Below are positions 7,628 to 64,000 of a stretch of DNA of 64,000 nt, in pieces. Where the stretch lies: contig JASXTE010000007.1 of NCBI GenBank assembly GCA_030280995.1, forward strand, positions 17,956,001-18,020,000, written 5' to 3'. Positions within the stretch are counted from its first letter, which is position 1. Every line of letters starts with the position of its first letter. This DNA comes from Hemileia vastatrix. Taxonomy: Eukaryota > Basidiomycota > Pucciniomycetes > Pucciniales > Zaghouaniaceae. The notes beneath the pieces are model-generated. The model was given only the letters and a program-made list of their open reading frames with translations. It had not been told where the DNA came from and searched no databases. Position numbers and translations under genes: made by a program.

Positions 7628-7661
7628 CTCCCTCACTCTAAAAAAAACAATAAAAAAAATG

Positions 7662-15638: not shown

Positions 15639-15672
15639 CTCCCTCACTCTAAAAAAAACAATAAAAAAAATG

Positions 15673-16775: not shown

Positions 16776-16778
16776 ACA

Positions 16779-18902: not shown

Positions 18903-21900
18903 TCACAAGACATGAGACCCATGAGCAAAAGCCATAGGGAAAGAGGTAATAGAGGCAACAATAGAATCTTTTTGTTCACAAGTCAACTGATCACCAAAAG
19001 AAGCAGTATTTATTTTATGTAATAAATCATCCATTTCAGTTTTTGTTCTACCTTTACATTGGGTCAGTGAGTTACAAGATTTCAACAAATGCCCAGAAGG
19101 TCTAGGAGAAGAAATTTTGAATTTTCTTTTCCCATTCATTCCTAAGGTAAAGCAATTATTTGCTGGGTCCAGTTTCACACCAAACATGGTTAAAATATCA
19201 TTTCCCATAATAAACCAATTGCTCAAATTATCATTTTTCATGACAACAAACTCACAAATATCTCTGACAAAACCACCATTATATTTGAAAAATACAGAGG
19301 TTTTGTATTTGCCAATAGGAAATAAGGTAGAACCATACCCTCTCCATTTTTCAGAAGTTATAGGCAATAATTTACCCAAATATTCCTTATCCACTGAAGC
19401 CAAAGCTTTTTCAGATACTACACTTCCTCCAGCACCAGAATCAAGAACTACATCAACATTTTTACCATTAATGATAACAGGTGCCTTTAAAGGGGATATA
19501 GGAATAGAATTGTTAGTAATATCTTTAATTATCTCAGCATTTTCTACTGAAGATAAATTCAATACACAATCTTCAGATATATTATTTAAATAATGGACAT
19601 CATGTTCCAACATTAAAACATCTTTAACAGATTCATTGTCATAGGAGATATTACTTTCACAGTCACTGGAAGAATTATTGACATCAAGTTCAACTTCATC
19701 AGTGTCTTCATTTTGTTCAACAAGATGAATTTTCTTGTCACAAACATGACCCTTCTGCCACAGTTTGTTACATTTATAACAAGTATTTGTTGCATATTTT
19801 TTAGGTGCAACTGGGGCAGAGGGTTTACCAGATTTTTCTGGGAGCTTTATAGAAGGTTTATTCTGATCATTATAAGATTTACTAAGGTAATTCTTTGGTT
19901 CATATCTATGGTTGAGTAGTACTTCATTACAGATATTAATGAAAGAAGAATTTTCCCTTACATGCTCAGTTCTAGCAACAATCAAATCCCTAAGAGAATT
20001 TGGTAATTTATACAAGATTTTATCTCTCCAAATATCATAATCCAACTTTGGATCAATTGCTCTAAGGATTTTAGTTATTTTCATCAGAAAAAAAATGGGC
20101 TTTTCAACAGAGGAGGATAAATATCTAGTATTCTCATACAGTCTCTGCTGAGCTAACCTGAATTTTGAACCACCAAACTGATTCTCAATCAAGGATTTCC
20201 AATCATTCCATGTATAATGGTTGTTATCTAAGAGGACAGATTCATACCACATCAAGGCTACATTGGAAAATAAAGAAATTAGCTTAGAAACAATTTCTTC
20301 ATCAGGTAGTTTATAAGATCTCTTTAAATTATCAATTCTCTGGATAAAGTGTTGCCAATCAGAGGAAGAATCACCATCAAAGGTAGGATATTGGTCTAAC
20401 TTAGGCCAATTTTTCTGACTACTGGGATGGTCCACTTTTTGGTTTGAATTATTCATTATTAATAATTCCTGAAGTTTAGCCAGGTGTTCAGAAATTTCAT
20501 TATTTACAGAAACAGCTGGTGCATGACCATCACAAGATTTTTTGCTAGTAGCAAAAGATTTTACAGACTCATTGTCAGTTTGTTTAATGGTTGAAATATG
20601 AGGAAGAAAGGATGAACTTTGCTCAGGTCTTTTCCCTTTATTTTTATGCAGCTTATTTACAGAAATCTCATTTAATTCATTATTGGTGTTTAAGGTTGAG
20701 AACTTTTCCTGTAGGTCAGACACATAGTTTCTTATTCTTGGAATTTCAGACATCTGGTCATTTAATTTTGCAAGAGATAGAACATTTCTGTCCTCAGAAA
20801 CTGAGTGTTTGGTACTTAGTGCATGGAAATCATTTTTTAGCTTCTTAAACTCATTTTGCAGAGATTTTATTTCATTTTTGAATGAATAATTTTCCTCAAT
20901 AAGGGGTTTCAATTCACTCAAGGTCTTATGTAGACTGATATTTCTATCTGAGATAGCTCTATGGTCACTTCTTATTTGTTTTTGTTGACTAAGAACAATA
21001 TTCAATGTTTCTATGATTTTTAAATAAGCTGTATCTTGTACAGAAGAACTCACTTTAAATTGCAAGTGTAAATTATTTAATCTATCATTTTCATGGATTA
21101 ACACATCTCTCACATGTTTGTCTTTTACAATATTAAAATCAAGGGTATCTTTCAATATTTCCTCAGAAGTTTTTTCAATTAAGGTATAGATTTCAGGGGG
21201 AACAGAATCATTTTTAATTGCAAGAGAAGGATTAATTAAAGATGTAGAAGTTAAATGTAAAGGTTCATCAAATGACAATTTGCTAATTACATCAATAGGG
21301 CTACTAGTTACAGGAAGCTGTCTTTTAACAGGTTTAACTGTTCTTTCACCATGTTCAATAATATTACCTGCAGAAGAAGATTTATTAGAAAACATACCCA
21401 AGTGACTATCAACCAAATTACTTACCATGGCAGAGGAGGAAACTTCCCCTGAGACTGGGTTTGGGATTGTGCTTGGGCCTTCTTTCTCCTGCCTTGTTGG
21501 TAGGGATGAGGAGGTGGATGGAAATTGGGTGTTCTGGATGGGCCAGGCTGATGATGAGGAGGGTGTTGCACATTCTTTTGGTAGTGACTCACTAGATAAT
21601 CCCATTTTCATTGCTCTACTTACATAGTATTTGGATTTTGGATGGTTGAGCTGGGTGGCTGTGAAGGTTGATTGGGAGGCAACTGAGGAGGGGCCTGGGC
21701 CTGAATCTGGTTCCTGAGTTCTTGGACCTGATCCCACAATGTGTCTACCTTTGCTTTGTACGTCATATTTTCTGTCTTCAACTCTTTTATATGACTGGAT
21801 AGGTTGCTGATTTGTTGTGGCAGAGGAAGCTTTTTTATTTTGAAGCCTTTTGGAAGACCTTCTTGAGGCACTAGAGGCTTTACTTCCTTCTGTGGTACTG

Positions 21901-22085
21901 GGGGAAGGGGGTTTGGTTTGTTTGCATTTCCTGTCATTTCCACATTGTGCAGTATGTGAATTCTTTGTGTTAGTATAAGATTTTTTATGACCAACTTTAG
22001 AAGAACTTACAGTGTCAGCATCATAGTCAATTTCTATTTCATCCACTTGCATGTTATCCATTTTTTCTGCCAAATTGTTGGACAT
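18903..22085 (-). CDS. Gag-protease polyprotein of copy C
   Basis: 1060 codons, same domains as copy B: coiled coil, Gag core, CYKCNKLW knuckle (P to L beside the zinc ligands), DSGAGGS protease. It ends at the same TGA (18903-18905) as copy B. The frame is open throughout. The overlapping second frame is cut by a stop after NTM (about 21620) through a change that is only missense for Gag, so in this copy Gag survived and the second frame did not. Confidence 0.88.
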   Translation of the reverse strand: MSNNLAEKMDNMQVDEIEIDYDADTVSSSKVGHKKSYTNTKNSHTAQCGNDRKCKQTKPPSPSTTEGSKASSASRRSSKRLQNKKASSATTNQQPIQSYKRVEDRKYDVQSKGRHIVGSGPRTQEPDSGPGPSSVASQSTFTATQLNHPKSKYYVSRAMKMGLSSESLPKECATPSSSSAWPIQNTQFPSTSSSLPTRQEKEGPSTIPNPVSGEVSSSAMVSNLVDSHLGMFSNKSSSAGNIIEHGERTVKPVKRQLPVTSSPIDVISKLSFDEPLHLTSTSLINPSLAIKNDSVPPEIYTLIEKTSEEILKDTLDFNIVKDKHVRDVLIHENDRLNNLHLQFKVSSSVQDTAYLKIIETLNIVLSQQKQIRSDHRAISDRNISLHKTLSELKPLIEENYSFKNEIKSLQNEFKKLKNDFHALSTKHSVSEDRNVLSLAKLNDQMSEIPRIRNYVSDLQEKFSTLNTNNELNEISVNKLHKNKGKRPEQSSSFLPHISTIKQTDNESVKSFATSKKSCDGHAPAVSVNNEISEHLAKLQELLIMNNSNQKVDHPSSQKNWPKLDQYPTFDGDSSSDWQHFIQRIDNLKRSYKLPDEEIVSKLISLFSNVALMWYESVLLDNNHYTWNDWKSLIENQFGGSKFRLAQQRLYENTRYLSSSVEKPIFFLMKITKILRAIDPKLDYDIWRDKILYKLPNSLRDLIVARTEHVRENSSFINICNEVLLNHRYEPKNYLSKSYNDQNKPSIKLPEKSGKPSAPVAPKKYATNTCYKCNKLWQKGHVCDKKIHLVEQNEDTDEVELDVNNSSSDCESNISYDNESVKDVLMLEHDVHYLNNISEDCVLNLSSVENAEIIKDITNNSIPISPLKAPVIINGKNVDVVLDSGAGGSVVSEKALASVDKEYLGKLLPITSEKWRGYGSTLFPIGKYKTSVFFKYNGGFVRDICEFVVMKNDNLSNWFIMGNDILTMFGVKLDPANNCFTLGMNGKRKFKISSPRPSGHLLKSCNSLTQCKGRTKTEMDDLLHKINTASFGDQLTCEQKDSIVASITSFPMAFAHGSHVL

Positions 22086-22777
22086 ACTAGTGGGAAGATT
22101 TATAATTTACTTTTTATTTTATAAAAAATAATAAAAGTTAGTCAATAATTGCTCCAAATAATAAAAAAAAATTTTTATTAATTAAATTATAGAAAAAATA
22201 ATTTTCAATATAAAGTAATAATTAAAAAAAATTAATTTTTTTAAAAAAAATGGATTGCAAGGTTAAATTGGGAATAACAATCAAGTTAATTCAACCAATT
22301 AATTACCAATATTAAATATGGCAATATATTTGGGACTAAGCACAATGTACTTTTAAGTCAACCAAAATTAACAATAATTAATAATAAAAAAAATTAAATT
22401 AATAATTCAATTTGTATTAATAAAAAATGTCAATTCTTCTAGGACTAAGAGGATTTAACACAATATAATGGTCAACTAGGAAAAAAAAAAATTTTAAAAA
22501 TTGAACACTTACACTCAGTGAATCAGCAATTAAGCCACAATCACTGTTATTGCAATAAAAATATAGTAATGTGAGTGAGAGGCGCAAAGGTGAACTTAAT
22601 ATAGTGATCAAAAAATCACTTCAAAATAATATAAAAATTAATATTATATAAACCTAAGATGTCGAACCCAATTTCGAAACACAGTCGCGGCAAAAGTTTC
22701 ATTTTGCTAGGTGGTCCGTGCGTTTTGTCGTTTGTCGCCAGGCTCGATCGTCGTCGTCGTTTGGAAAGGCCCCCAGT
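22086..22777 (-). other. 5' leader and primer-binding site of copy C
   Basis: Same as the leaders at 5800 and 13811. Primer-binding site reads TGGGGGCCTTTCC just below the LTR end at 22778. Confidence 0.6.
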
Positions 22778-30139: not shown

Positions 30140-30828
30140 ACTGGGGACCTTTCCAAACGACGACGACGATCGAGCCTGGCGACGAACGACAAAACGCACG
30201 GACCACCTAGCAAAACGAAACTTTTGCCGAGACTGTGTTTCGAACTTGGGTTCGAAATCTTAGGTTTATATAATATTAATTTTTATATTATTTTGAAGTG
30301 ATTTTTTGATCACTATATTAAGTTCACCTTTGTGCCTCTCACTCTTATTACTATATTTTTATTGCAATAACAGTGATTGTGGCTTAATTGCTGATTCACT
30401 GAGTGTAAGTGTTCAATTTTTAAATTTTTTTTTTCCTAGTTGACCATTATAGAGTGTTAAATCCTCTTAGTCCTAGAAGAATTGACATTTTTTAATACAA
30501 AATTGAATTATTAATTTAATTTTTTTTTATTAATTATTGTTAATTTTGGTTGACTTAAAAGTACATTGTGCATAGTCCCAAATATATTTCCATATTTAAT
30601 ATTGGTAATTAATTGGTTGAATTAACTTGATTGTTATTCCCAATTTAACCTTGCAATCCATTTTTTTTAAAAAAAAATTAATTTTTTATAATTATTACTT
30701 TATATTGAAAATTATTTTTTCTATAACTTAATTAATAAAATTTTTTTTTATTATTTGGAGCAATTATTGACTAACTTTTATTATTTTTTTTTAAAAATAA
30801 AAAGTAAATTAAAAGTCTTCCCACTAAT
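30140..30828 (+). other. 5' leader and primer-binding site of copy D
   Basis: After a 2-nt spacer the primer site reads TGGGGACCTTTCC (30142-30154), one base different from A-C. The rest is AT-rich and non-coding. Confidence 0.6.
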
Positions 30829-30919
30829 ATGTCCAACAATTTGGCAGAAAAAATGGATAACATGCAAGTGGATGAAATAGAAATTGACTATGATGCTGAC
30901 ACTGTAAGTTCTTCTAAAG

Positions 30920-31492
30920 TTGGTCATAAAAAATCTTATACTAACACAAAGAATTCACATACTGCACGATGTGGAAATGACAGGAAATTCAAACAAACCA
31001 AACCCCCTTCCCCCAGTACCACAGAAGGAAGTAAAGCCTCTAGTGCCTCAAGAAGGTCTTCCAAAAGGCTTCAAAATAAAAAAGCTTCCTCTGCCACAAC
31101 AAATCAGCAACCTATCCAGTCATACAAAAGAGTTGAAGACAGAAAATATGACGTACAAAGCAAAGGTAGAAACATTGTGGGATCAGGTCCAAGAACTCAG
31201 GAACCAGATTCAGGCCCAGGCCCCTCCTCAGTTGCCTCCCAATCAACCTTCACAGCCACCCAGCTCAACCATCCAAAATCCAAACACTATGGAAGTAGAG
31301 CAATGGAAATGGGATTATCTAATGAGTCACTACCAACAGAATGTGCAACACCCTCCTCATCATCAGCCTGGCCCATCCAGAACACCCAATTTCCATCCAC
31401 CTCCTCATCCCTACCAACAAGGCAGGAGAAAGAAGGCCCAAGCACAATCCCAAACCCAGTCCCAGGTGAAGTTTCCTCCTCTGCCATGGTAA
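30920..31492 (+). CDS. Overlapping alternative-frame ORF in gag, longest version (copy D)
   Basis: 190 codons in the second frame, the only family I copy where it is uninterrupted to its conserved end (FPPLPW, TAA overlapping GTAAGT). Order: Pro-rich start, KGFKIKKLPLPQQIS, helix with heptad spacing (SSHTKELKTENMTYKAKVETLWDQ), Pro/Gln linker, EQWKWDYLMSHYQQN, His/Pro part, basic QGRRKKAQ, Gln-rich tail. The frame opens without ATG; an ATG is at MTGNSNK. Compare the equivalent frame of family II at 475-945. Product and role unknown. Confidence 0.42.
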   Translation: MVIKNLILTQRIHILHDVEMTGNSNKPNPLPPVPQKEVKPLVPQEGLPKGFKIKKLPLPQQISNLSSHTKELKTENMTYKAKVETLWDQVQELRNQIQAQAPPQLPPNQPSQPPSSTIQNPNTMEVEQWKWDYLMSHYQQNVQHPPHHQPGPSRTPNFHPPPHPYQQGRRKKAQAQSQTQSQVKFPPLPW

Positions 31493-31546
31493 GTAATTTG
31501 GTTTATAGTCACTTGGGTATGTTTTCTAATAAATCTTCTTCTGCAG
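31489..31546 (+). other. Candidate 58-nt intron in gag (copy D and equivalents)
   Basis: GTAAGTAATTTG donor, TTCTAATAAAT branch-like sequence and CTTCTTCTGCAG acceptor. The donor sits on the stop codon of the alternative frame, as in family II (475-480). Splicing would change the Gag frame (58 is not a multiple of 3), and no combination I tried gives a long fused protein. It may be a remnant or part of an alternative transcript. Confidence 0.3.
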
Positions 31547-34008
31547 GTAATATTATTGAACATGGTGAAAGAACAGTTAAACCTGTTAAAAGACAGCTTC
31601 CTGTAACTAGTAGCCCTATTGATGTAATTAGCAAATTGTCATTTGATGAACCTTTACATTTAACTTCTACATCTTTAATTAATCCTTCTCTTGCAATTAA
31701 AAATGATTCTGTTCCCCCTGAAATCTATACCTTAATTGAAAAAACTTCTGAGGAAATATTGAAAGATACCCTTGATTTTAATATTGTAAAAGACAAACAT
31801 GTGAGAGATGTGTTAATCCATGAAAATGATAGATTAAATAATTTACACTTGCAATGTAAAGTGAGTTCTTCTGTACAAGATACAGCTTATTTAAAAATCA
31901 AAGAAACCTTGAATATTGTTCTTAGTCAACAAAAACAAATAAGAAGTGACCATAGAGCTATCTCAGTTAGAAATATCAGTCTAAATAAGACCTTGAGTGA
32001 ATTGAAACCCCTTATTGAGGAAAATTATTTATTCAAAAATGAAAAAAATCTCTGCAAAATGAGTTTAAGAAGCTAAAAAATGATTTCCATTCACTATGTA
32101 CCAAACACTCAGTTTCTGAGGACAGAAATCTTCTATCTCTTGCAAAAGTAAATGACCAGATGTCTGAAATTCCAAGGATAAGAAACTATGTGTCTGACCT
32201 ACAGGAAAAGTTCTCAACCTTGAACACCAATAATGAATTAAATGAGATTTCTGTAAATAAGATGCATAAAAATAAAGGGAAAAAACCTGAGCAAAGTTCA
32301 TCCTTTCTTCCTCATATTTCAACCATTAAAGAAACGGACAATGAGTCTGTAAAATCTTTTGCTACTAGCAAAAAATCTTGTGATGGTCATGCACCATCTG
32401 TTTCTGTAAATAATGAAATTTCTGAACACCTGGCTAAACTTCAGGAATTATTAATAATGAATAATTCAAACCAAAAAGTGGACCATCCCAGTAGTCAGAA
32501 AAATTGGCCTAAGTTAGACCAATATCCTACCTTTGATGGTGATTCTTCCTCTGATTGGCAACACTTTATCCAGAGAATTGATAATTTAAAGAGATCTTAT
32601 AAACTACCTGATGAGGAAATTGTTTCTAAGCTAATTTCATTATTTTCCAATATAGCCTTGATGTGGTATGAATCTGTCCTCTTAGATAACAATCATTATA
32701 CATGGAATGATTAGAAATCCTTGATTGAGAATCAGTTTGGTGGTTCAAAATTCAGGTTAGCTCAGCAGAGACTGTATGAGAATACTAGATATGTATCCTC
32801 CTCTGTTGAAAAGCCCATTGTTTTTCTGATGAAAATAACTAAAATCCTTAGAGCAATTGATCCAAAGTTGGATTATGATATTTGGAGAGATAAAATCTTG
32901 TATAAATTACCAAATTCTCTTAGGGATTTGATTGTTGCTAGAACTGAGCATGTAAGGGAAAATTCTTCTTTCATTAATATCTGTAATGAAGTACTACTCA
33001 ACCATAGATATGAACCAAAGAATTACCTTAGTAAATCTTATAATGATCAGAATAAAACTTCTATAAAGCTCCCAGAAAAATCTGGTAAACCCTCTGCCCC
33101 AGTTGCACCTAAAAAATATGCAACAAATACTTGTTATAAATGTAACAAACCGTGGCAGAAAGGTCATGTTTGTGACAAGAAAATTCATCTTGTTGAACAA
33201 AATGAAGACACTGATGTAGTTGAACTTGATGTCAATAATTCTTCCAGTGACTGTGAAAGTAATATCTCCTATGACAATGAATCTGTTAAAGATGTTTTAA
33301 TGTTGGAACATGATGTCCATTATTTAAATAATATATCTGAAGATTGTGTATTGAATTTATCTTCAGTAGAAAATGCTGAGATAATTAAAGATATTACTAA
33401 CAATTCTATTCCTATATCCCCTTTAAAGGCACCTGTTATCATTAATGGTAAAAATGTTGATGTAGTTCTTGATTCTGGTGCTGGAGGAAGTTTGTATCTG
33501 AAAAAGCTTTGGCTTCAGTGGATAAGGAATATTTGAGTAAATTATTGCCTATAACTTCTGAAAAATGGAGAGGGTATGGTTCTACCTTATTTCCTATTGG
33601 CAAATACAAAACCTCTGTATTTTTCAAATATAATGGTGGTTTTGTCAGAGCTATTTGTGAGTTTGTTGTCATGAAAAATGATAATTTGAGCAATTGGTTT
33701 ATTATGGGAAATGATATTTTAACCATGTTTGGTGTGAAACTGGACCCAGCAAATAATTGCTTTACCTTAGGAATGAATGGATAAGAAAATTCAAAATTTC
33801 TTCTCCTAGACCTTCTGGGCATTTGTTGAAATCTTGTAACTCACTGACCCAATGTAAAGGTAGAACAAAAACTGAAATGGATGATTTATTACATAAAATA
33901 AATACTGCTCCTTTTGGTGATCAGTTGACTTGTGAACAAAAAGATTCTATTGTTGCCTCTATTACCTCTTTCCCTATGGCTTTTGCTCATGGGTCTCATG
34001 TCTTGGGA

Positions 34009-36999
34009 ATTGTTCAGGAAGAAATGAAGATTGCCTTATCCTGTAATTTGAGTGATATTCCTCCTACCCTTAAGAAAAAACCATATCCTGCTTCTCCATC
34101 AAAAAGAAAAGATATTGAAGATAATATTGTAACATTATTGAAAATGAATATCATTGAGAAAGTGGATGTCACCCCCAAATATTGTGTCATCTCCCCAGTC
34201 TTAATTTCTTATGAAAAAGATAAAGCTAGATTATGTGGAGATTACAGAGCTTTAAAACTTATACTGTTGATGATATTTATCCTTTACCCAGAATTAATTC
34301 AATACATGCTACCTTGCAAGGTGCAAAATTTATTAGTTGTCTGGATGGTAATAAAGGGTATCATCAAGTTCCAGTTGAGAAAAATTCTCAAAAATTTTTG
34401 CTTATTGCTACTCATATGGGAATATATAAGTATGTTAGGATGCCATTTGGCCCTAAAAATGCTCCTTCAGTTTTCCAGAAGGTCATGGATAACACTTTCC
34501 ATCAAGAAATTATTGAAGGTTGGCTCATGGTTTATATTGATGATATTATTGTTTTTTCTAAAACTTTTGATGAACATATGATTCATTTGAATAGAGTTTT
34601 CCAAAAAATGGATGAAATCAATATGACCTTATCTTTAAAAAAGTGTAAATTTGGTTTTCAATCTTTGAAAGTCCTTGGCCATGTTGTGTCAGGCTTACAA
34701 ATTTGTGTAGACCATAATAAAGTTGCTGCCATTCAAAATGTGAAAGCACCAACTTCTGTAAGAGAAATCCTAAGTTTTTTGGGTATGTGTGGCTATTATA
34801 GACAATATATTAAAAATTATCAGGTCATAGCCTTGCCTCTTACAAAACTAACCAGAAAAGATGTTGCTTTTCTCTGGAATAATGACTGTCAGAAAGCTTT
34901 TAATACATTGAAAAGTTACTTAATGACAGCCCCTATATTGGCTCTTCCAGATTTTAACAAGCCATTTGTACTTTATACAGATGCTAGCTTTATTGGTCTG
35001 GGAGCTGCCCTTCACCAAAAGCAAATTATTAATGATAAATCCTCAGAGGTTGTAATTTGTTATATTTCAAGAACCTTAAGAAATAGTGAATTGAAATATG
35101 GTGCCACTCAATTGGAGTGCTTAGCAGTTGTTTGGGCTCTTGAGAAACTTCATTACTACTTGGATGACCAAAAATTTGAGTTGGTAACTGACTGTAGTGC
35201 TGTGAAATCTCTCTTAAACCTCAAAACACCTAACAGACATATGTTCAGGTGGCAACTTGCTGTTCAAGAATACAGAAGAAGGATGACTATTATCCATAGA
35301 GCTGGAAATGTTCATTCTAATGTTGATATTCTCTCCAGATTGCCTCTGCCAAATAATGACTCCAATCCTGCTTATGTACCTGAAGATGATACTGTTCATA
35401 TACATGGTATATTTATAGTTGATATGGAAGAAGAGTTATTACAGTTAATACTGGATTCATATGATAAAGATTCTGACTTAAATAAATTAGTGACTATTTT
35501 GAATGATCCTAAAAATTGCTTCAATTCAAGCATTAATAAAAACTCTTCCTGCAAAGTACCAAAATGCTTTAAGTAAAGGAAAGTTTTCTATTGAAGATGG
35601 TTATATATATTATAGAAGGAAGCTTACCAATGTAATTGTTATTCCTCCTTCAATGAAAGAAACTATCCTCAAACTTTGTCATGATGACATATTAGCTGGT
35701 CATTTTGATCTTGAAAAAACATTGATTAGAATCAAAAACACTGCATGGTGGGCTAATATTTCTGAAGACACAAAATTATATGTTGAATCTTGTGATTCCT
35801 GCCAAAAATCTAAAAGGTTAACAGGTAAGAGAGCAGGGTTATTACAACATATTGAAGCACCTAGTGCTCCCTGGCAAATCATTAATATGGATTTTGTCAC
35901 TGGTCTTCCTGTTGCAGGTAAAGACAGCTTTAACTCTTGTTGGGTAATAGTGGATAGATTCACAAAAATGTGCAAATTTATTCCAAACCACAAAGATGTA
36001 TCCACCAAAGAATTAGCTTTCTTATGGTGGTCTTACATGTTTAATATTATTGGTTTTCCAAAAGCCATTATCTCTGATAGGGATCCAAAATTCACTTCTG
36101 AGTTTTGGACCTCTTTGATGGATATTTGTGGCTGTGAGTTGAAATTGTCTACAGCTCACCATCCTCAGACTGATGGTCTAGCTGAAAGAATGATTCAAAC
36201 TGTGGAAGATATGATTAGAAGGTATTGTGCCTTTGGTTTAGAATATAAAGACAATGACAGATTTACTCATGATTGGGTCACTCTTTTGCCTGGTCTTGAA
36301 TTTGCATATAATAGCACTGTTCATTCTGTCACTGAGAAAAAGCCTTTTGAGCTTTGGTTAGGTTATGTCCCAAACACTCCTGCTCAGATTCTCAATAATA
36401 AATTACCTAAGTTGGAACTACACCCTGGTGTAAAATCTTTTATGCAAATGCAAAAGCTATGCAGAAAACATGCTCAAAGTTGTATTGATAAAGCATTTGA
36501 ATATGAAAAGAAAAGATGGGATAAATCCCATAAAGAATACACATTTAACAAGGGTGATGAAGTGTTGATTTCTACTGTCCATTTCAATTTACAGGGTAAC
36601 CACAAATTAAAAGATCCTTTTGTAGGACCATTTGTTGTTAAAAGAATGGTTGGTGATAATGCAGTAGAAGTTGTATTGTATTCTCCATATGATAGGAAAC
36701 ATCCTGTCTTTCCCATTTCTTTGCTTAAACCTTATACTTCTAACAGTGACTTATTTCCAAAAAGAAGAGGAAGACCTAAGAAGAACCCTCAGGAAGTCAC
36801 AGAAACAGCAGAAATTGATAAAATTCTCAATGATAGAATTATCACTTTTGAGAGAGGTACTGAATATTTATTGAGATATAAGAACAAATCATCTGAACAT
36901 GATGCATGGATACCTGGCAAGGAAATTTCAAATCTGCCTGCTCTGTTGAAAAAATACAAAAAGAAAAATCTTAGCATTTTTTTTTATTGTTTTTTTTAG
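34009..36999 (+). pseudogene. Pol polyprotein of copy D
   Basis: RT N-terminus in frame with protease to the slippery heptamer at 34251-34257, then RT-RNase H open in the -1 frame 34233-35576 (YIDDIIVFSK, VLYTDASF, DILSRLPLP). A one-base insertion near 35515 shifts the frame. Integrase follows, open 35503-36999: zinc finger (H, H, CDSC), catalytic MDFVTGLP, SDRDPKF, AERMIQ, AT-hook RRGRPKK and chromodomain. The end is extended past the usual stop into the polypurine tract side. The insertion makes this copy defective. Confidence 0.88.
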
Positions 37000-53835: not shown

Positions 53836-53855
53836 TGGCCCCCAACGTGGGGTTC
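53836..53855 (+). promoter_or_regulatory. Primer-binding site like tRNA-Lys (family IV)
   Basis: TGGCCCCCAACGTGGGGTTC differs by one base in the overlapping part from the known tRNA-Lys(CUU) site TGGCGCCCAACGTGGGGC. It marks the end of the 5' LTR at about 53833. A 7-bp stem CTTACAG/CTGTAAG lies just upstream (about 53798-53819). Confidence 0.65.
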
Positions 53856-53903: not shown

Positions 53904-53966
53904 AGCCTGCAAGAGGCTTATTTTCTGGAAGTCTAATTGGATTTTTGTTATTGGCCTGCAAGAGGC
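53904..53966 (+). repeat. Two small hairpins in the family IV leader
   Basis: AGCCT-GCAAG-AGGCT (53904-53918), followed by TATTTTCTGG, and GCCT-GCAAG-AGGC (53954-53966). Their design (4-5 bp stem, small loop with CAA, T/A-rich tail) resembles the hairpin repeats farther down. Confidence 0.5.
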
Positions 53967-54009
53967 TTGTTATTTTATTGATTGTTAACGCTTTTCATTA
54001 CTTATTGGG

Positions 54010-55938
54010 ATTTCTTCTTCTGCTGTTGCTTCTGGATCTCCTCAAACTCTTACTCCCTCTGTTAGGATTATTTCTTGGGATGGCCCAAAGTTTGATGGGG
54101 AGGAGGTTAAATGGTTCATTAGCAGGTATGAAGCTGCTGCTTCGGTTGATGGTGCTTCTCATGTGGATATGGTGAAGCAAGTTAGATTTTTTATTGCCGA
54201 TAGGGAGGTGGAAAAAGAGGTTATTTCTATGCAGGCATTTAAGGACAAGGATTGGGTTAAGCTTTCTAAAGCTATGGTTGATAGATGGGATGTTAGGTTT
54301 ACTATGATGGACCTCAATAAAATTGTTGGAGACTGGCAAGCAAAAGGTGGAGTTTCTTCTATGGCTGACTTCAAAAAGCTCTGTGTTCAGTTTGATGAAG
54401 TGGTGGAATATCTCATACTGGTGGACAAGTTAGTGCATGAGAACCAGGCAAAAGATTTGTTTTTGTCAGCATGCAGTAGGGATATTTGAATGGACGTCTT
54501 GAAGGATCTTTCAAGAAAAGATTTGATGAAGGAACTGCCTAATGGTGAGCAGAAACTGCCGGCTCTGGAGGTTATCAAGGACAACATTCAAGCCCATCTA
54601 AAGTTATTGGCGTTGGACAAATATAAAGAGTCATGCACTCAATATGTTAGCAAGGTCAGCGAAGTTTTGGCCGAAAACAACGATATTATAGTCAAAGCCT
54701 AGGAGGCCAAGAAGGCACAAATGGGATTACCTGCTGCTAAAGTTGAGGGCAATGTAGATAATAAGATGGTCAATCACTTGGCCGATTTAACGAAAAAATT
54801 AAAAATATTTGTTCAAGAGACTCAGAAGCCTAACAAGGCCCCAATTTCTTCTTCGTCGACGTCAACTTCTTATCAGTCCAGAGGTTTTGAACGTCAAAAT
54901 TATAATGGCAATAATAATGGTAACTGCTTCTCAGGCAATGGGAGAAATTTTGGGAATGGTGGTAGTAGTTATAGAGGTGGCTATGATGAGCCAAAGGTGT
55001 GCTCCTATTGTAATAGGAGTGGGCACAGAGCAACAGTTTTTTTTGCTCTTGATAAGGATATGGATGCTGGGCAAGTTTTATTTGATGGTAAAGTTTATAA
55101 ATTTCCTGATGGTTTGTTCATCAAGCCCAGTGATGGACAGTCTCCTTCTGATTTGGTCAGAAGAAATTTAATGGCTGAAAGGAGAGCCATATTTGAAGAG
55201 ATAAATGATGAAGATGTTAATGCCAAGAGTGGCAAAAATGGAAATGGTAATGGTGGAAAAGCTGACAAAGGTAAAGAGAAAGAGGTCAGTAAAGCCACAT
55301 TTTCTAATTCTTTTGGTGGTTTAGAGCTGGAGATGGTTGCCCAGGTGGAGGGTAGCTGTATGGCTGGCGAATACAATGTTAATGCTGCTAGAAGAGCAGC
55401 TGCTACTAAGGCTAAGAGTAGCATTCAGAGCCAATTGAGGGCTAATCCTGGCAAGGCCAATAACAAAGTGAACCCTTACTCTAAGGACGAGAATTCTAGT
55501 GTAAAAACTGCCGCCAACAAATTGAACCCTTACTCTAAGGACAAATTATATAAAATGCAGAAGGGGATTGCTGAGATGGGGCCCCCTAGTTATGGCAAGT
55601 TTGATTTAAATGGTGAGCCTATGCCAGAGGATGATTCAGATTCTGAGGAGGATGTACCGTTGGCGTCTCTACCCAGACCGAGTTTTAGCGGTCCCATCCC
55701 AATGGAGGGTGTAAGAAGGACTAGCAATGGATCAGGATTAGTGCAAGAAGCTGGTGACGGAGTCAGGGTTATAGAAAGTGAAGATGGCTCGGTTGGACCT
55801 CAAGAGGTACCCAGGGCCAAGGTTGTTAAATCAAAGGTCCAGTATGAGCGGCCAGTAGTTTCTGGTCAAGCTAATGCAATGGACGTAGTTCTGAATAGGG
55901 TGAATCAACTGCAGATTCCCTTATCTTTGGGGGATTAA
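54010..55938 (+). pseudogene. Gag of family IV element
   Basis: One frame with two stops (TGA 54487-54489, TAG about 54700-54702), both explainable by C-to-T change. No ATG is left at the expected start; the frame is recognisable from TPSVRIISWDGPKFDGEEV. Gag core runs about 54070-54480 (WFISRYEAAA, KIVGDWQAKGG, FDEVVEYL). The zinc knuckle reads CSYCNRSGHRATVF (about 54997-55040): the fourth ligand, normally Cys, is Phe. A basic/acidic linker follows with two copies of NPYSKD and DSDSEEDVPLASLP. Typical of basidiomycete gypsy Gag. Defective. Confidence 0.8.
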
Positions 55939-55947
55939 TTTACCATT

Positions 55948-56598
55948 AGTCTGGCGCTTGTTGAAAAGCAAAAGAAGCACTTGACGAGGCGTCAGGTTTC
56001 CACTGGAGAGGTGGAATATATTTGTGAAAATGCTGAAAAGTTTGGGGAAGATGTAGATACACATTTTTCTGCTCCCCTGGGTTACCTGTTGGTAACTCTT
56101 AACGGTAAAGAAGTAAAGGCCTTGGTCAATTTAGGGTCTCAAATTAATTTAATTTCATTGGAGCAAGCAACAAGTATAGGCTTGCCAATTAAAAGTGGAA
56201 CTGGGGGAAACCTCAGAGGCATTGGAGGGCATGCAACAGAGCTGATGGGTACAGCTGAGCATGTCAGGTTAGGCATTGGTGGATCTGTTGGTAAGTTTCA
56301 CTTTTATGTGGCCAGAGGAGCAGTCAAAACTGTTCTTGGTGGTCCTTTTTTGATGGATTTTGAGGCCAGGATAGGGTATCAAGCTGGCATGGAGATTAGT
56401 TTGGAGATCACTGGTGAAGATATGCAGAGGTTACATATGCGGTTAGCGCCTCCTGGAGATGAAGGTTGGGAAACACGGCCAGGGATTACTACTCTGTGCC
56501 AGTGTTGTGTTTGCACCAAGAGGCGGCATATAAAACGGACGGCTTCTGGTGAATTATGTTTGTTGGGAAGGGATGAATGCCCTCATTTTTTGGGGTAG
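55948..56598 (+). pseudogene. Aspartic protease of family IV element
   Basis: Open from about 55981 to 56598. The flap and fold are recognisable: YLLVTLNGKEVKALVNLGSQINLIS and VLGGPFLMDFEARIGY. The catalytic Asp of the D-x-G motif is Asn (VNLGS), a G-to-A change that should abolish activity. A Cys-rich tail (CQCCVCTKRRH) follows. Frame not continuous with the following RT region. Confidence 0.75.
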
Positions 56599-56837
56599 CA
56601 AGGGCTGATCACTCTAATGTTGTAATATCTCCTCAGGATGAGATCCCGGATTGCAATAGGTCAGCTCACTTGGAGATAATTCAAGTGGATTCTCAAATAT
56701 TTTCTGCTAACATTACCTTGGAGTGCAAATAAGTTTTGTACTTTTCCATATGTTTATTGGATTTACCCTGTTTTTCTATTAAATTTAAAAATGGTGAAAA
56801 AGGCAATATGGGCCAAATTAGGTTGGATAAAAATTGA

Positions 56838-57929
56838 ATGGGTATGTTTCTGGACCTCCAGCAAGAGGTTAAACTGCAAGTATCTCCTTCTATTTTGGAC
56901 CTCCAGCAAGAGGGTAAACTGCGAAAATCTTATCAAAATCCAATAAAAAATCTTAGTATAATTAAAACACAAAAAAATAATTTTTGTGAAAATTCAATTA
57001 CGGACCTCCAGCAAGAGGTTAAACTGCAAGTATCTCCTTCTATTTTGGACATCCAGCAAGAGGGAAAACTGCAAATATCACATCAAAATCCGATAAAAAA
57101 TCTTAGTATAATTAAAACACAAAAAAATAATTTTTGTGAAAATTCAATTCCGGTCCTCCAGCAAGAGGATAAACTTCCAACTTTCTTTACGGGCAATTTA
57201 CTGTTGGATAAGGGAAGCAAAGGTGTTGGAAAATCTGTTTATAAATTAGACGAGGGAAAAGAGAAAAGGGTAGAATTTAAAAATGAAATAAAATATTTTT
57301 CTAATTTTTCTTCTTCCGATTCTGACGATGAAGAAGATTCATTTGATGAAATTTTTAATGGCAATACAAAAGAAAATGTTTTACCTCAAGTTTATTTAGA
57401 TGCGGAAGCAGCCAAATATAAAAAAGTAGCAAATAAAGTTAGACCAATTAATGAACAGCTACCTGCCAAATTAAATTCACCCTTGAGAAGACCAAGGTTA
57501 TCAAGAGATCCTCATGAAATTCCCTTGGTAAAGAATCTGCCTGAATTTTCTGAGACATCAAGAATCACTTTTGACAGACTGGGTGTTGTTAATTTTGGAC
57601 CTGATGGTTGGTTGTTTGGAGAAGAGAAGAAGTTGTTGTTGGATGTGATGTTCAAGCAAGAGAAGGCCATTGCTTTTGTAGAAGAGGAGAGGGGTGTGTT
57701 GAAGCATTCCTATGGGGAGCCTTACAAGATTCCTGTGGTATGTCATGAACCGTGGCTTCAGAAACCGATTCCTATTCCGGCTGCATTAAAAGAAGCCTAT
57801 ATTGAAGTTGTCAGAGAACGGATACGAACTGGACTGTATGAGCAATCAACATCAAGTTATTCTAGTCCGGTATTTTGTATCAAGAAACTGATGGCAAGCT
57901 TAGAGTTGTTCATGATCATAGGTAATTAA
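56838..57929 (+). pseudogene. Linker with LQQExKL repeats and RT N-terminus (family IV)
   Basis: The first 120 codons contain five repeats reading LQQEVKL, LQQEGKL, LQQEVKL, IQQEGKL, LQQEDKL, embedded in two ~145-bp duplications (56855-57000 and 57001-57150). The underlying DNA forms CCTC-loop-GAGG hairpins. An acidic stretch (SSSDSDDEEDSFDE) and the RT N-terminus follow (RPINEQLPAKLNSP, ARxRxDP-like KLNSPLRRPRLSRDPH, KPIPIPAALKE, SSYSSPVFCIKK). The frame is lost at 57890 by a one-base deletion. Confidence 0.7.
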
Positions 57930-59167
57930 ATAGGGTTACAATAAAGGATGCTGGGATACCGCCTAGTGCTGAGGAGTTTGTTGAAGCGTTTGCAGGGAGA
58001 GTGTTTTATGGTTTGGGAGATATTATGGGTGGATATGATGAGAGAGAGTTACATCCAGACTCAAGGCCTCTCACTACATTCGATATGCCAATATGACGTT
58101 TACAGTTAACAAGATTAACTCAAGGAGCAACAAATTCGGTTGCAGTTTATCAAGCTCAGATGGCTTGGATCCTTCAAGACAAAATTCCACAATATGCTGG
58201 AATCTTTATAGATGATGGAGGAATTAAGGGACCAACAACCAACTATGATAACCAGGTGTTGGAAGAGAATACCGGGATACGCAAAGTCATTTGGGAGTTT
58301 TCAATTACATTAGAAAGAATCTTGTTTCGAATTGAAGAGGCTGGGTTAACTATTTCAGGGTCAAAATTTTCATGTTGTGTGCCAGCCTTAGAAATATTAG
58401 GCCATGTGGTGTTTAGAGAGGGTAGGATTATGTCCAAGAAGGAAGTTAACAAAATTCAGTCCTGGCCAAGACCCGAGAATACAACCGAAGTTAGAGGGTT
58501 TTTAGGTGTTTTCATATATGTTAGAATGTTTATTAAGGACTTTTCCTCATTGGCAGCTCCATTGAGACGGTTAACAAGAAAGGATGCAGACTGGGAGTGG
58601 GATGAAGAGTGTGAGAAGGCGTTTGTGAAGTTGAAGGAGGTTGTGGGGAAGGATTTAGTCCTGCACAAGTTGGATTATGGAAAAGATGCTGGCAGAATTT
58701 ATTTAGCATTTGATTCAAGTCAGGTTGCATCTGGGGCATTTTTGTCTCAGATGGATAAAGCTGGTTACATCAGGCCAGTTAGGTATGAATCTGTAGTATT
58801 TACTGAGGTCGAATCAAGATATTCTCAACCAAAATTGGAATTATGTGGTGTGGCGAAAATACTGAAGAAACTTCAGAATATTTTGTGGGGGCAACATTTT
58901 GAGTTGCAAGTGGATGCAAAATTGTTAATCCAGATGATTAATTCCCCAAGTTTACTGAAAGCACCCATGACGAGATGGGTAGCTTTTATTCAACATTTTG
59001 TGTTTGATTTAGTTCATAAGCCTGGAAAAACTTTTACTATGCCAGATGGTTTATCAAGGAGACCACCCACTGAAGAAGATTCAGACTCAGAAGAGTTCAA
59101 TGAAGATATAACTATTATCAAAGCCAGCACTAAAGGAGCTGAAGACTTTCCATACCTCCCCCATTAG
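57930..59167 (+). pseudogene. RT and RNase H of family IV element
   Basis: Frame resumes after the shift: RVFYGLGDIMGGYDER, TGA at about 58094, TRLTQGATNSVAVYQAQM, catalytic GIFIDDGG (about 58195), LEILGHVV, EVRGFLGV, thumb and connection (LAAPLRRLTRKDADWEWD), RNase H (IYLAFDSSQVASGAFL, ESRYSQPKLELCG, LQVDAKLLIQM), TMPDGLSRRPP. It ends at a TAG (59165-59167) that lies inside a hairpin unit; the same frame continues behind it, so the stop is a nonsense change. Confidence 0.8.
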
Positions 59168-60892
59168 GTTAAACTGGCAGGATTATTGTGTTTAGATTAT
59201 GGTGATGATGACCTCCACCAAGAGGATAAACTGGAAAATAGTTTTTATGTTAATAAAGGTGTTGGAAAAGGTGTAGATAAATTTGGTAGAAAGAAGATAG
59301 AAGAAGATGTGGTGTATGTAGAGGAAGATGGATTGGTAGTGTGGGATCGTAGTAAGTTAAGAAATGGTGTATATGTTGGAGAATTAGAGAATTTAAATAA
59401 AAAGGTGGATAAAGAGAAAGAGGTATTTTCGAATACGGTTTACAAAGTATCCAAAGGTTCAGAGGAAAAGCGTTGACATAGCTCGATTAAAGATCTATTT
59501 AGCGGCCAAAGATTATTGGCTCATTCATTTGCAGGTGATATTGGTGATAGAGAAGTCCCTATTGATGTTATATTAATCAATTTTCAAGATGAAGTCTGGG
59601 GTCAGACTGGATTTTATTTTTTGTTAGTCAAATATTTGTTGACTTTAGAGAGGCCAGAAGATTGTGAAGACGATGAATGGGTGGCTATCAAGAGGAAGTC
59701 ATTTACGTTTTACCTATCTGGTCGACATTTAATGAGGAGAAGGTATCCAAATCCTCAAGTAGTTATAACTCAACAGAAGGGGCAAGAATTAGTTTTGAAA
59801 TCACTGCATGAAGATCTTGGGCATAGAGGCGTTGGAGAAACGTTTAGAAGAATTTCTGATCAATTTTGGTGGCCTGGCATGAAGATGGCTGTTAAACAGT
59901 GGGTTCAGTCATGCGAAGAATGTCAAAGACAAAGTTATTTAAGGCCAAAAGAACCTGGACGCGCGACTGGTGAATATATGCTCTTTGGAAGAGTTAGTTT
60001 AGATGCCGTTCATATAAAAGAGGGACGGTATAAATATTTAATTGTGGCCAGAGATGATTTATCTGGTTGGGTAGAGGCAGCACCTCTTATTAATTTAACT
60101 GCCAAAAATGTGGCAGAATTTTTGTTGAACAATTGGGTATATAGGTATGGGGTGATGAAGTTGGTGATGGTAGATGGAGGTCCTGAATTTGGGACAGAGT
60201 TTAAAGAGGCCGTATTGAAAGTTGGATCAAAGGTTAGGGTAGCAACCCCATATTATCCTGAAGCTGAAGGCATGGTTGAAAGAGGGCATCAAGTTATTAA
60301 GGATGCTTTAGTTAAAATGTGTGGGACAAGTGCTGAAAAGTGGAGGCACTATTTACCTTTTGTTTTATTTGCTGATCAAATCACTGCCAAAAGGACGACC
60401 GGATTTTCACCTTATGAACTTGTTTTTGGACAGAAAGCAGTTTTACCGGTTGATTTAGAAGCTGAATTATATCTTGGAGTTGACTGGGACACGGTCAAAA
60501 CTACTGATGAATTATTGTGTGCAAGAATGATGCAGCTAGAAAAGAAAGAAGAATATTTAGAAAAGGCATATTCACGGATGATGAAGATCCAAAGTCAATC
60601 AGTTAGATATTGGGATGAGCGGTTGGCACATCGATTAAGGAAACCTTTGAACCCAGGAGATATGGTCTTGGTGTATAATAGGAGTTAGGAAAGTCAGTGG
60701 GGAAAGATGTTTTCAGATAGGTGGAATGGATCGTATAAAAGCAAGGAGCAAGTTTCCGGCGGTTCATATGTGTTATAAGAGTTGGATGGAGTTGAATTGA
60801 AGAAGAGGGTAGCGGCCGATCAAGTGAAGCGGTTCTATCCTAGAGGCACCAGGAGTGCCAAAGTCTACCTCCGCAATGAGAATAAACTATGA
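59168..60892 (+). pseudogene. Linker and integrase of family IV element
   Basis: Same frame as RNase H with TGA at 59474. Linker holds DLHQEDKLEN (hairpin unit at 59212). Integrase: zinc finger HEDLGHRG then SCEECQ; catalytic Asp in SLDAVHIKEG, Asp in MVDGGPEF, Glu in AEGMVERGHQ, all present; C-terminal LNPGDMVLVYNR, TAG at 60686-60688, then VKRFYPRG. Core is intact in sequence, so integrase is the best preserved part. No chromodomain. Confidence 0.82.
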
Positions 60893-61124
60893 TATTGACG
60901 GAATTTTATGGATTCCTCCGCAATGAGGATAAACTATGATATCGAAAAAATTTTATGGATCCCTCCGCAATGAGGATAAACTATGACATTTATTAAATTT
61001 TATGGATTCCTCCGCAACGAGGATAAACTATGATATCAACGAAATTTTATGGATTCCTCCGCAATGAGGATAAACTATGATGTTTATAAAAATCTTATCA
61101 ACCTCCGCAACAAGGATAAACTAT
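60868..61124 (+). repeat. Six tandem units with CCTCCGCAAYGAGGATAAACTA (about 46 bp)
   Basis: Units at 60868, 60915, 60962, 61009, 61056 and 61102. Each has stem CCTC, loop CGCAAT or CGCAAC, stem GAGG (GAGA in the first, AAGG in the last), then ATAAACTA and a GATAT...TTTTATGGATT spacer. Lies in the 3' region after integrase. Confidence 0.88.
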
Positions 61125-61336
61125 CTTCTTTTTATCAAAATAATTTACTATTGTTACACTGCATATGGGCGACGAAACTGTGATGAAAATTAACGAAATG
61201 CGAGAAAACCTTCTTTGAAAATTTTCAAAATTTAAAATTCTTAAAATATGGGTGAAGATAGTGTTGGAAAATTTTAAAAATTTATTGGAAGAAGTGTTCA
61301 CAGGGGAACCTTCTTAATTTAATATTGGCAAGTGTG

Positions 61337-61377
61337 GGGGTAATTGATGGGCTGGCTGCTCTATACACAATTACCCC
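61337..61377 (+). repeat. 10-bp inverted repeat near the putative polypurine tract of family IV
   Basis: GGGGTAATTG (61337-61346) and CAATTACCCC (61368-61377), 21-nt loop. The purine run AAGTGTGGGGGTAA would be the polypurine tract, placing a 3' LTR start at about 61344, but no matching 5' LTR sequence was found. Confidence 0.55.
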
Positions 61378-61399
61378 ATAATGTTAGTTTCCAAAATTT

Positions 61400-62245
61400 T
61401 CCCTGTTTCTAGTTGAATCCTGGCTTTGTCTTTTAATTATAGGAAGTCCACTAAGACTATAAACTGGAACGAATCAAGAGACACCGCTCTCAACGCCGGA
61501 TTCAAGATTCTTTTTATTTTATTTTGTTTTTGATTTTTTTATGTTAGATTGTGATTTCTTTTCTTTAATATATATTATGAATTATTGTAAAGGTGATGCT
61601 CACTGGTGGTCTCTAATCATTTTTATAAATTGGATGGAGCCCACCCAGTGATCATCATTTTAAAATTATCTTCTAAAAACTTTCATTTATTTTCTTTTCT
61701 TTTAAATTTCTCAAATTGTGTAACCACATCAAGTTGCACTTGGATGTGGGTATGATGTCGAGGGTACGGCTCATCATATGGCCGGGGGGCATCTTTTAAA
61801 AATTTTATTTTGAAATTTTTTTACTATTATTACTTTTTTTATCTTTCTTTTCACATTTGTTTATCTTTCTTTAAATATTTAATTTTAATTTTTATTTCAA
61901 ATCTATCTTTTCTAAAATCTTTTATTTTAAATTAAAAACAAATTAAAATTAAAAATAAATACAAATAAAATAAATAAAATAAAAAATAAATTAAAAATTA
62001 AAAAAAATAATATGATATAATAAAATAAAATAAATAAAAATAAAAATAAAAAATAAATAAATAAATAAATAAAAATAAAATAAAAAAAAAATTAAAAAAT
62101 TAATTAATTAAATCAAAATTATTATTATATTTCTCAGTTTTATTTTTCAGTCTCCATTATTTTTAGTTTTATTCATTTAGTTTAGACAGGAAACAGTGTC
62201 TAGGGGAACTCAATACCTATGGGATTTTACTTCAAGACATCTGTT
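61400..62245. other. Non-coding 3' region of family IV, including A/T-rich low-complexity DNA
   Basis: Contains one hairpin unit (61445), another possible fold (CCACATC...GATGTGG around 61723-61747), and a long A/T tract (61880-62100). No gene. Confidence 0.5.
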
Positions 62246-63006
62246 AGTCCTCCAAGACTTTAAACTGGCTACTGTTCAAGACATTCTTTAAGGTTTTTAT
62301 TATACATATTTTGGATCTGTTAGTCCTCCAAGACTTTAAACTGGCTACTGCTCAAAATATTCTTTAAGGTTTTTTATACATATTTTGGATCTGTTAGTCC
62401 TCCAAGACTTTAAACTGGCTAATTTTCAAGACTGTCATTAAATATTTTATATTGGAGCTGTTAGTCCTTCAAGACTTTAAACGGAATTTCAAGGATGTTC
62501 AAGATTTATGGATATTTTTGGAGACAGATTTTTTTATATAAATCAAATGTTAGGTCCACCAAGACCCTAAACTGGACTATTATCAAGCTGTTGGATCCCT
62601 CATGATCTTAAACTGGATTTCTTATCGATCAAATGTTTGGTCCACCATGACTTTAAACTGGTAGTTCATTCATTGTTTAGTCCACTATGACTTTAAACTG
62701 GAAAATTAATATCTGCAGGATAATTCAACATTCATTGGTCCACTATGGCCCTATACTGGATTACTTGTCAATCAAATGTTTGGTCAACTATGACATTAAA
62801 CTAGATTATCAAGTTTATTCAATCTTTGGTCAAGCCTAGGCCTTACTTAGAAATATTTCAAGTTATTTATGCACTTAAACAATCTTTGGTCCACCAAGAC
62901 CATAAACTGGCAATTGATTATATGTTTGGTCCACCAAGACTTTAAACTGGAATGTCAATCTTGTTTGGATAACTCAATTAAATCTTTTAATTTATCACTG
63001 TCCACT

Positions 63007-63267
63007 CACTATGCAATATAGGGGGTGGACTTGCTAGCAAGTCCTCAACCTGAACTCAGATGGAACTCAGATGGAACTCAGACTGAACTCATACTGAACC
63101 CATACTGAACTCTACTTGAACACCCACCTAAAACTGTTCTTCTGAGTGGTGTTCATTCCTGATTGTATGGCTCCTTTATCAATAGCTCAATGTGTGTTCA
63201 ATCTATGGTGAGTTTGGGTCCAAGGTTGCGGACTTGCTAGCAAGTCCGCCCCCCATATTGTGTGGTG
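63007..63267 (+). mobile_element. CACTA-type MITE, second 261-bp copy
   Basis: Starts CACTATGCAATATAGGGGG, ends in ATATTGTGTGGTG; same length, interior and subterminal palindromes as the copy at 16515. 3-bp duplication ACT at 63004-63006 and 63268-63270. It sits inside a hairpin repeat unit, splitting loop from stem. Confidence 0.92.
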
Positions 63268-63289
63268 ACTAAGACTCTAAACTGTTTAT

Positions 63290-64000
63290 TCAATTATTTC
63301 TGGAATTGGGTGCTGATAAACTTTAGGAGATTAAAATTTTAGGTGGTGATGATGCTAAGAAAAGCAAAATGGTTAATTAGGTGAAATTTGTGGCGCTTTA
63401 ACATGGTCTAAAGTTAATATTATTAATGGAAGCCTGGCAAAAGTATTTTATGGGTTTGCTGCATAGCAAAGTTTGAAAATTGTGATGAAGGAATCAGAAG
63501 TTAGGATGGTAGTTGGATTTTAGGGAATGATTTTTTTAGTGCCTCATAGTTAGGCCATTTTTTTTGGTGTGAAGCTTGGAGGACCTTATGGCGAGATTGG
63601 AATAATAGAATTTGGCTCAGTGGGGGGCTCTATGAGATTGGAATCAGGAGTATTTGGCTCATTAGGAAGATCCACTCTCTCAATGCTGTGACATGAAGGA
63701 AGACTGGTATATGGGAGTCTGAAGGGATTCAAACCTTGCTCTCAGTAGTGGAATCATCACAAGATTTATTTTATTTTATGTTATATCAAGCCAGAGAAGA
63801 AAGAAACAACGTTTTTATTTTTAAAAATTAAAAAGAAGACCAGCTAAAACAAATTTATCAAATTATTTTATTAGAAAAGATAATTCTTTTGGAATTGCTC
63901 AATCACTTATGCAAAGTTTTAAGAATGGGGACATTCTCAATTGGAGGGAGGATGTGGTAGCCTAAAGTTTAGTATGGCACCTAAGTACGTAAATGGAGTT
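63290..64000. other. No confident gene; possible decayed protease-like sequence
   Basis: Plus-strand phrases such as INGSLAKVFYGFAA around 63410-63470 faintly recall an aspartic protease of a gypsy element, but stops are frequent and the match is too weak to call. Confidence 0.25.

Follow-up and report, generated by a model that had tools for sequence, protein, structure and literature searches.

What maintains a short, hairpin-shaped unit in many copies along a retroelement that is itself broken? The question is raised by a 64,000-nt stretch of Hemileia vastatrix DNA (assembly GCA_030280995.1, contig JASXTE010000007.1, positions 17,956,001 to 18,020,000 of the forward strand), which we refer to as the window. 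It contains what is, by the order of its open reading frames (ORFs), a broken copy of a Ty3/gypsy-type retroelement, and a 23-nt unit recurs within and behind the pol frame of this element. The reading we favour, to which we assign a probability of roughly four in ten, is that the units are a multi-copy recognition signal in the RNA of the element. It is preferred because all 26 intact units lie on the coding strand, because pairing is mostly kept within them, and because a second copy of the element, represented by protein P0084, keeps the unit peptide at its C-terminus.

A repeated 23-nt unit

Each unit is composed of four bases, a 6-nt loop, four complementary bases, one spacer base and a TAAACTGG-like tail. 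The 26 intact units span positions 56855-62950, all of them on the + strand. Together with one copy split by a miniature inverted-repeat transposable element (MITE) and one decayed copy they give a total of about 28, the number put forward in a preliminary description of this DNA. By place, in a grouping of our own, the intact units fall into six clusters of 5, 2, 6, 1, 4 and 8. Cluster 1 (56855-57177) consists of five in-frame units in the linker between protease and reverse transcriptase (RT), starting at 56855, 56900, 57005, 57050 and 57155. Two units are located in the RNase H-integrase linker (59155-59177 and 59212-59234, the latter with the full consensus score), and another closes the pol frame (60868-60890, ...VYLRNENKL-stop), 3' of two in-frame stops in this broken copy. 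Five non-coding units follow at a spacing of 46-47 nt (60915, 60962, 61009, 61056 and 61102; 60915-61124). The last 13 units, designated group B, comprise a single unit (61445-61467) and four units spaced 67-76 nt apart (62246, 62322, 62396 and 62463; 62246-62485), all with the stem AGTC/GACT, and a run of eight (62553, 62594, 62639, 62679, 62737, 62782, 62888 and 62928; 62553-62950), whose stems are, in order, GGTC/GACC, GATC/GATC, GGTC/GACT, AGTC/GACT, GGTC/GGCC, GGTC/GACA, GGTC/GACC and GGTC/GACT. A decayed unit on the same strand (GGTCAAGCCTAGGCC..., 62828-62850), recognised by reading the sequence, was excluded from every count.

The last unit (62999-63285, + strand) is interrupted in its loop, its two parts (62999-63006 and 63270-63285) flanking a MITE with an ACT target duplication. 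When rejoined after removal of one ACT, it is identical to unit 61445 at 20 of 23 positions. The MITE itself (63007-63267, 261 bp) has a second copy at about 16,511-16,777 (also given as 16515-16775), 91% identical. It has 46-nt inverted arms, apparent 3-bp target duplications (ACT; by eye ACA at the second copy) and ends, CACTATGC.../...GTGGTG, which we take to be CACTA-like.

To delimit the set, the core TCCNNYAWGANNNTAAACTGG was scored over 16 defined positions with thresholds of at least 13 and at least 12. At the higher threshold, 24 sites were found on the + strand in 56,800-63,300, one other + site in the window (42,082) and none on the - strand; dinucleotide shuffles of 54-64 kb (n = 20) gave a mean of 0.5 sites and a maximum of 2. 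At the lower threshold the window held 39 + sites, 27 of them in the region, and 13 - sites. To the 24 sites scoring at least 13 we added 61009, which scores 12, and 61102, which stays below 12, to obtain the set of 26. From these units a covariance model was derived; it recovered all 26, by construction, and in addition 63243-63285 (E 0.042), which belongs to the split unit. Its next-best matches in the 64 kb were both on the - strand (E 0.74 and 0.96), and no second unit array was found elsewhere in the window with this model. For genome searches the unit can be written as TCCNNCAWGANNNTAAACTGG.

The elements of the unit differ in how strictly they are kept. TAAACT is present in 23 of 26 tails, and exactly TAAACTGG in just 12, so that the tail described at first as constant is constant in its core only; 14 tails end in CTGG or CTAG and 12 in other letters. 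The closing C-G pair and the T-A pair next to it had also been called constant. The former is kept in 24 of the 26 units and the latter position is paired in all of them, 25 times as T-A and once as T-G. The loop, mostly CNNCAW, ends in AA or AT as reported, apart from the loops of 61009 and 61102, which end in AC.

Eight of the units fall within the pol frame and share one codon phase (a1 at codon position 3). They sit in the two linkers and at the C-terminus, and the last three are located at or past in-frame stops of this copy. Cluster 1 encodes, in order, LQQEVKL, LQQEGKL, LQQEVKL, IQQEGKL and LQQEDKL, and the two units of the RNase H-integrase linker LPH*VKL and LHQEDKL. The other 18 units are non-coding and are located after the pol stop codon, in agreement with the earlier statement that units occur in both kinds of DNA. 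Within clusters these are 40-106 nt apart, many of the distances not being multiples of 3, and 62,231-62,980 has stop codons in all three frames. Information content across the 26 units is 2.0 bits at the third base of codon 1 and 1.76 bits at that of codon 5 (offset 15), as against just 0.26 and 0.39 bits at the first and second bases of the latter codon. Since 18 of 26 units are non-coding and third codon positions are among those fixed, the conserved thing is a nucleotide pattern which, over all 26 units, is not codon-like.

On the same two observations we reject selection on the peptide as the main cause. A protein-level repeat, L-x-Q/N-E-x-K-L, kept for instance as a protease cleavage site or a linker peptide with the non-coding copies as relics, would explain why the eight in-frame units share a codon phase at linkers and at the C-terminus, and why P0084 ends in FLRNEDKL. 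It would leave aside the non-coding majority, the spacings and the stop codons described above, and we consider it very improbable. Relatives bear on it as well. A regular expression for the unit peptide, run on 203 relatives' proteins, gave four matches: the true one in P0084, two in P0032 and P0059, and one at an unrelated place in P0187. Those in P0032 and P0059 fall in the homologous linker, where P0035 reads LLQNESKI, and were judged to be chance; they are the only linker matches among 14 relatives with at least 30 linker residues. At the C-terminus the unit peptide was present in one of 25 relatives with sequence after the PRG motif, namely P0084 itself. In the integrase tails of P0087, P0088, P0091, P0093 and P0113, IQQEE stands a few residues past the PRG motif. 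Given its nearness to LQQEVKL, it may be the source of the peptide, and an origin of the unit in the C-terminal codons of pol is possible.

Pairing within the stem

Among 325 four-pair geometries in the unit and its 12-nt flanks, the 4-bp helix described here was the best, with 99 of 104 cells paired (95%). The runner-up (81%) overlaps it and the following ones reached 73%; a fifth pair would form in just 9 of 26 units. In the 21 distinct units 94% of stem cells were paired, compared with 69.7% after shuffling, and the covariation score was 0.555 against 0.144, neither value being reached in 500 shuffles. When the partner was moved by one to three columns, at most 50% of cells were paired. The outer pair occurs as C-G, A-T, G-C and G-T and the next pair as G-C, C-G and A-T, so that all the pair types first reported were recovered, with G-T in addition at the outermost position. 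Both outer pairs change on both sides. The initial claim that stems change and stay paired is borne out to this extent, with the qualification that one stem position is unpaired in five of the 26 units (57050, 59155, 60868, 61102 and 62782). Of the 253 column pairs, the two variable stem pairs rank first and second by corrected mutual information when all units are used.

To allow for the shared descent of the units, a tree null was built on a single FastTree tree with rows of 35 nt, and 20,000 simulations were run for each of three paired root states. The observed total pairing was equalled or exceeded in 0, 1 and 4 of 20,000 runs, and the pairing of the two variable pairs in 2 to 5 of every 10,000 (P at most 5e-4). 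In group B alone (13 units, 11 distinct), 3 of 500 shuffles reached the observed pairing and 1 of 500 the covariation score.

Several results weigh against a selected RNA stem. Under an R-scape-like null that preserves the phylogeny, the stem pairs had E values of 0.21 and 0.30 and no pair fell below 0.05; covariation over the phylogeny of units, the test proposed at the outset, is thus not significant pair by pair, although total pairing exceeds the tree null. Two of five measures, pairs changed on both sides and further pair types, were not above shuffles. Within group B the further pair types were likewise not above shuffles, and the stem pairs rank just 4th and 8th by corrected mutual information. 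Much of the covariation is one split, in which group A has CC/GG and group B has AG/CT or GG/CC. The stem is also short, fully paired units having energies of -1.3 to -3.5 kcal/mol. A mean pair probability above 0.5 was predicted for 20 of 26 stems when 2-nt flanks were included and for just 9 of 26 with 40-nt native flanks; native flanks surpassed shuffled flanks in 10 of 26 units and equalled them in one. Predicted folding in context is weak, and the folded RNA or cruciform of the preliminary description is hypothetical, as are a binding partner and the roles in packaging, localisation or integrase binding suggested for it. The stem hypothesis was, moreover, drawn from the same data on which it is tested, and, the copy being broken, part of the change is drift. 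No unit was found in gag-protease in the core scan of the window, and two hairpins in the leader of the element resemble the units just loosely. A search of 53-64 kb against Rfam gave seven weak matches (E 0.28 to 4.4), none at gathering score; one of them, snoR639 (21.9 bits against a gathering score of 42), overlaps units.

Plain local duplications are evident, of 150 nt in cluster 1 and of 47 nt and 76 nt. They speak for a reading without function, in which a minisatellite-like sequence was multiplied by tandem duplication and RT template switching and its pairing was inherited or arose by symmetric mutation. Template switching by RT preserves orientation, the element is broken, and no single pair covaries significantly. 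Deamination in mirror-image contexts could in parallel turn some G-C into A-T pairs, a further point against selected pairing; in Austropuccinia psidii, loss of CpG and GC in old transposable elements has been reported (PMC8063080, in the portions available). Such deamination does not yield the C-G/G-C swaps seen in both variable pairs, which need two-sided transversions, and the tree-based null is rejected. Comparison between clusters (265 pairs) also runs counter to neutral multiplication. Units are 65.5% identical there, as against 29% and 32% for their 17-nt flanks, and because the flanks are unrelated it is the 23-nt unit, not a longer repeat, that has been kept. We regard neutral multiplication as somewhat unlikely. 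If it nevertheless applies, and the units are read neither in RNA nor in DNA, the locus shows how well duplication and drift mimic a covarying RNA family, which matters for structure calls made from repeats.

An RNA hairpin that is read by a protein is expected to combine a variable stem with a loop and tail that stay constant. For the favoured recognition signal we infer both that it acts in RNA and that a protein binds it. The short stem would display the loop, and with it the (N)TAAACT(GG) tail in single-stranded form, to an RNA-binding protein. The simplest candidate is the nucleocapsid of the element's own Gag, and many weak sites along the genomic RNA would raise specific binding, for packaging or particle assembly. 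Copies in pol would have survived only where the protein tolerates them, at domain borders and in a stop-free phase. The more specific proposal, that a Ty3/gypsy-type lineage of rust fungi carries a many-copy RNA hairpin code along pol and the 3' region, read by its own Gag for packaging or assembly, appears improbable at present.

The host element and its relatives

The element lies on the + strand. A primer-binding-site-like sequence, TGGCCCCCAACGTGGGG (53836-53852, identified by reading the sequence), presumably marks the 5' end of the internal region. It is followed by the two leader hairpins, AGCCT-GCAAG-AGGCT (53904-53918) and GGCCT-GCAAG-AGGCT (53953-53967), each of -6.7 kcal/mol, which share with cluster 1 the 8-mer GCAAGAGG. 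This 8-mer occurs seven times in the window, always on the + strand and within the unit-bearing element, and the leader hairpins (53904-53967) are possibly distant cousins of the units. A gag-like ORF (54703-55938) contains, by eye, a CCHC-like motif (CSYCNRSGHRA) and has no Pfam match at E 0.001. The aspartic protease (55939-56598) matches PF13650 (E 4e-07). The next ORF (56838-57929) covers the linker units and the N-terminus of RT; it has no Pfam match itself, many of its 83 homologues having PF00078. The C-terminal part of RT together with RNase H (58097-59167; PF17917, E 5.3e-20; PF17919, E 1.7e-19) ends at a TAG inside unit 59155. The integrase, with zinc-binding and core domains (59477-60688), matches PF17921 (E 5.3e-19) and PF00665 (E 2.3e-07; 31.4 bits, slightly below the cut-off of 32.6). 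The order gag-like, protease, RT (assigned from homologues), RNase H and integrase is the gypsy order, and the copy is considered broken because stops and frame breaks separate the ORFs.

No pair of long terminal repeats (LTRs) was found, either by repeat comparison over 46-64 kb or when 46-54.1 kb was compared with 60-64 kb by blastn, and the last 13 intact units may lie between pol and a 3'LTR or inside it. After pol, at 61330-61377, lies a polypurine-tract-like stretch with a 10-nt inverted repeat (AAGTGTGGGGGTAATTG ... CAATTACCCC), where the 3'LTR may begin. A different Ty3/gypsy-type element, with a gag-like ORF of about 1043-1067 amino acids, is present in several near-identical copies at 2689-22106 and 30808-36999, three on the - strand and a broken one on the + strand; the covariance model detected no unit array in them.

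Besides the 83 homologues of the RT-region ORF, 129 proteins were found for the integrase. Among the matches listed, named relatives include A. psidii, Puccinia and Cronartium, and the named close relatives are mostly rust fungi; many others are metagenome proteins. The integrase is 96% identical over 229 residues to P0084, which is recorded as Xanthomonas sp. A2111 on a contig of 21.9 kb and is probably fungal DNA contaminating a bacterial assembly. Contamination may likewise account for P0140 (54%), recorded as Streptomyces fumigatiscleroticus. P0084 ends in ...FLRNEDKL, compared with ...YLRNENKL-stop in the window, and the unit peptide is thus present in a second copy. Its D for N would fit GAGGAY, which would pair the stem position left open by GAGAAT in the window.

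Prokaryote and viral collections were searched as well, from which near-identical genomes may have been excluded and whose scope does not extend to other fungi. Contigs of IMG/VR and GTDB held no two units in tandem, as is to be expected because the element is fungal. In IMG/VR a loose unit pattern matched 21 contig stretches, one match apiece, which we take as chance, and three further unit patterns gave no match; tblastn with RNase H, integrase and P0084 found no relatives there, nor did the GTDB contigs contain a relative of P0084. A protein search with the unit-rich linker returned 1112 candidates, none at E of 10 or below.

Comparison with known systems

Two familiar kinds of feature were considered and set aside. 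A tRNA-like unit was rejected, as ARAGORN in its bacterial setting found no transfer RNA in the window. The 3' end of a Helitron is a hairpin followed by CTRR at the end of the element; here 12 of 26 tails lack CTGG or CTAG, and the units are internal and many. In the searchable full-text literature, to which most subscription papers do not belong, no fungal or rust LTR retrotransposon with a repeated hairpin or palindromic motif of this sort was found. The terms hairpin, palindrom, tandem repeat and stem-loop occur neither in PMC12210899 nor in PMC8063080, and the former also lacks the term motif.

Retand elements, which are also Ty3/gypsy, have family-specific short tandem repeat arrays between pol and the 3'LTR (PMC11963269, as far as its text was accessible). 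The likeness is that a Ty3/gypsy element has a repeat array towards its 3' end, here 3' of pol. Unlike those arrays, the present one is a 23-nt core among unrelated spacers which also occurs in the pol frame, and no 3'LTR was found here.

Closest among the published systems found is a palindrome of Sirevirus LTR retrotransposons, the repeated motif (RM), which is present in 8-32 copies per element, in the linker and 3'LTR, and whose function is unproven (PMC2829016, of which parts were available, for this and the following comparisons). Both are short motifs with inverted arms in at least 8 copies (here 26), and the letters of the Sirevirus arms differ between elements while the symmetry is kept. 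Sireviruses are plant Ty1/copia elements, whereas the host element here has the gypsy-type order. A CGG-CCG core is found in 12 of 13 Sirevirus RMs; our units have inner arms TC...GA around a 6-nt loop. The listed RM consensus sequences lack a one-sided tail, which the units have, and RMs are placed in the LTR, the linker and the start of ENV, not in pol, where units occur in frame. RMs belong in the LTR and, in elements that have an ENV gene, also in the linker; here units are present after pol, and neither repeats nor blastn gave an LTR pair. Membership thus fails and the likeness stands by analogy. The initial statement that no described family is like this one has to be restricted: the Sirevirus RM is alike in kind, though it belongs to another superfamily, and it is the one-sided tail that, in the parts of that paper available, has no counterpart. 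The likeness argues for a regulatory motif with dyad symmetry at the DNA level, to which a transcription factor or a chromatin protein of the host would bind in the 3' region. Of the 26 units, 18 do follow the pol stop, and inverted arms are equally a DNA feature. A one-sided tail, a single orientation in 26 of 26 units and eight units in the pol frame fit it poorly, and the arms change their letters while keeping complementarity, which a dimer reading sequence would not need. We consider this explanation unlikely; were the units read in DNA, they would extend the Sirevirus-type dyad motif from plant copia to fungal gypsy elements.

The recognition signal in RNA, our favoured reading, has its closest parallel in dispersed RNA packaging signals, where many stem-loops with a shared motif lie on one genomic RNA (PMC6281560, from the portions at hand, as for what follows). 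There the shared motif is short, for example xxYA in the loop in MS2. The units have a longer and stricter motif, are partly in tandem and have a 3' tail, and they are known from sequence alone. The case for dispersed packaging signals has been made in RNA viruses and in hepatitis B virus, and no LTR retrotransposon case was found. Multiple stem-loops with a shared motif are present here at the level of sequence, although their predicted folding in context is weak. If the units are read in RNA, the idea of multiple packaging signals could be tested cleanly on this retrotransposon, which would offer many similar, countable sites and natural stem variants.

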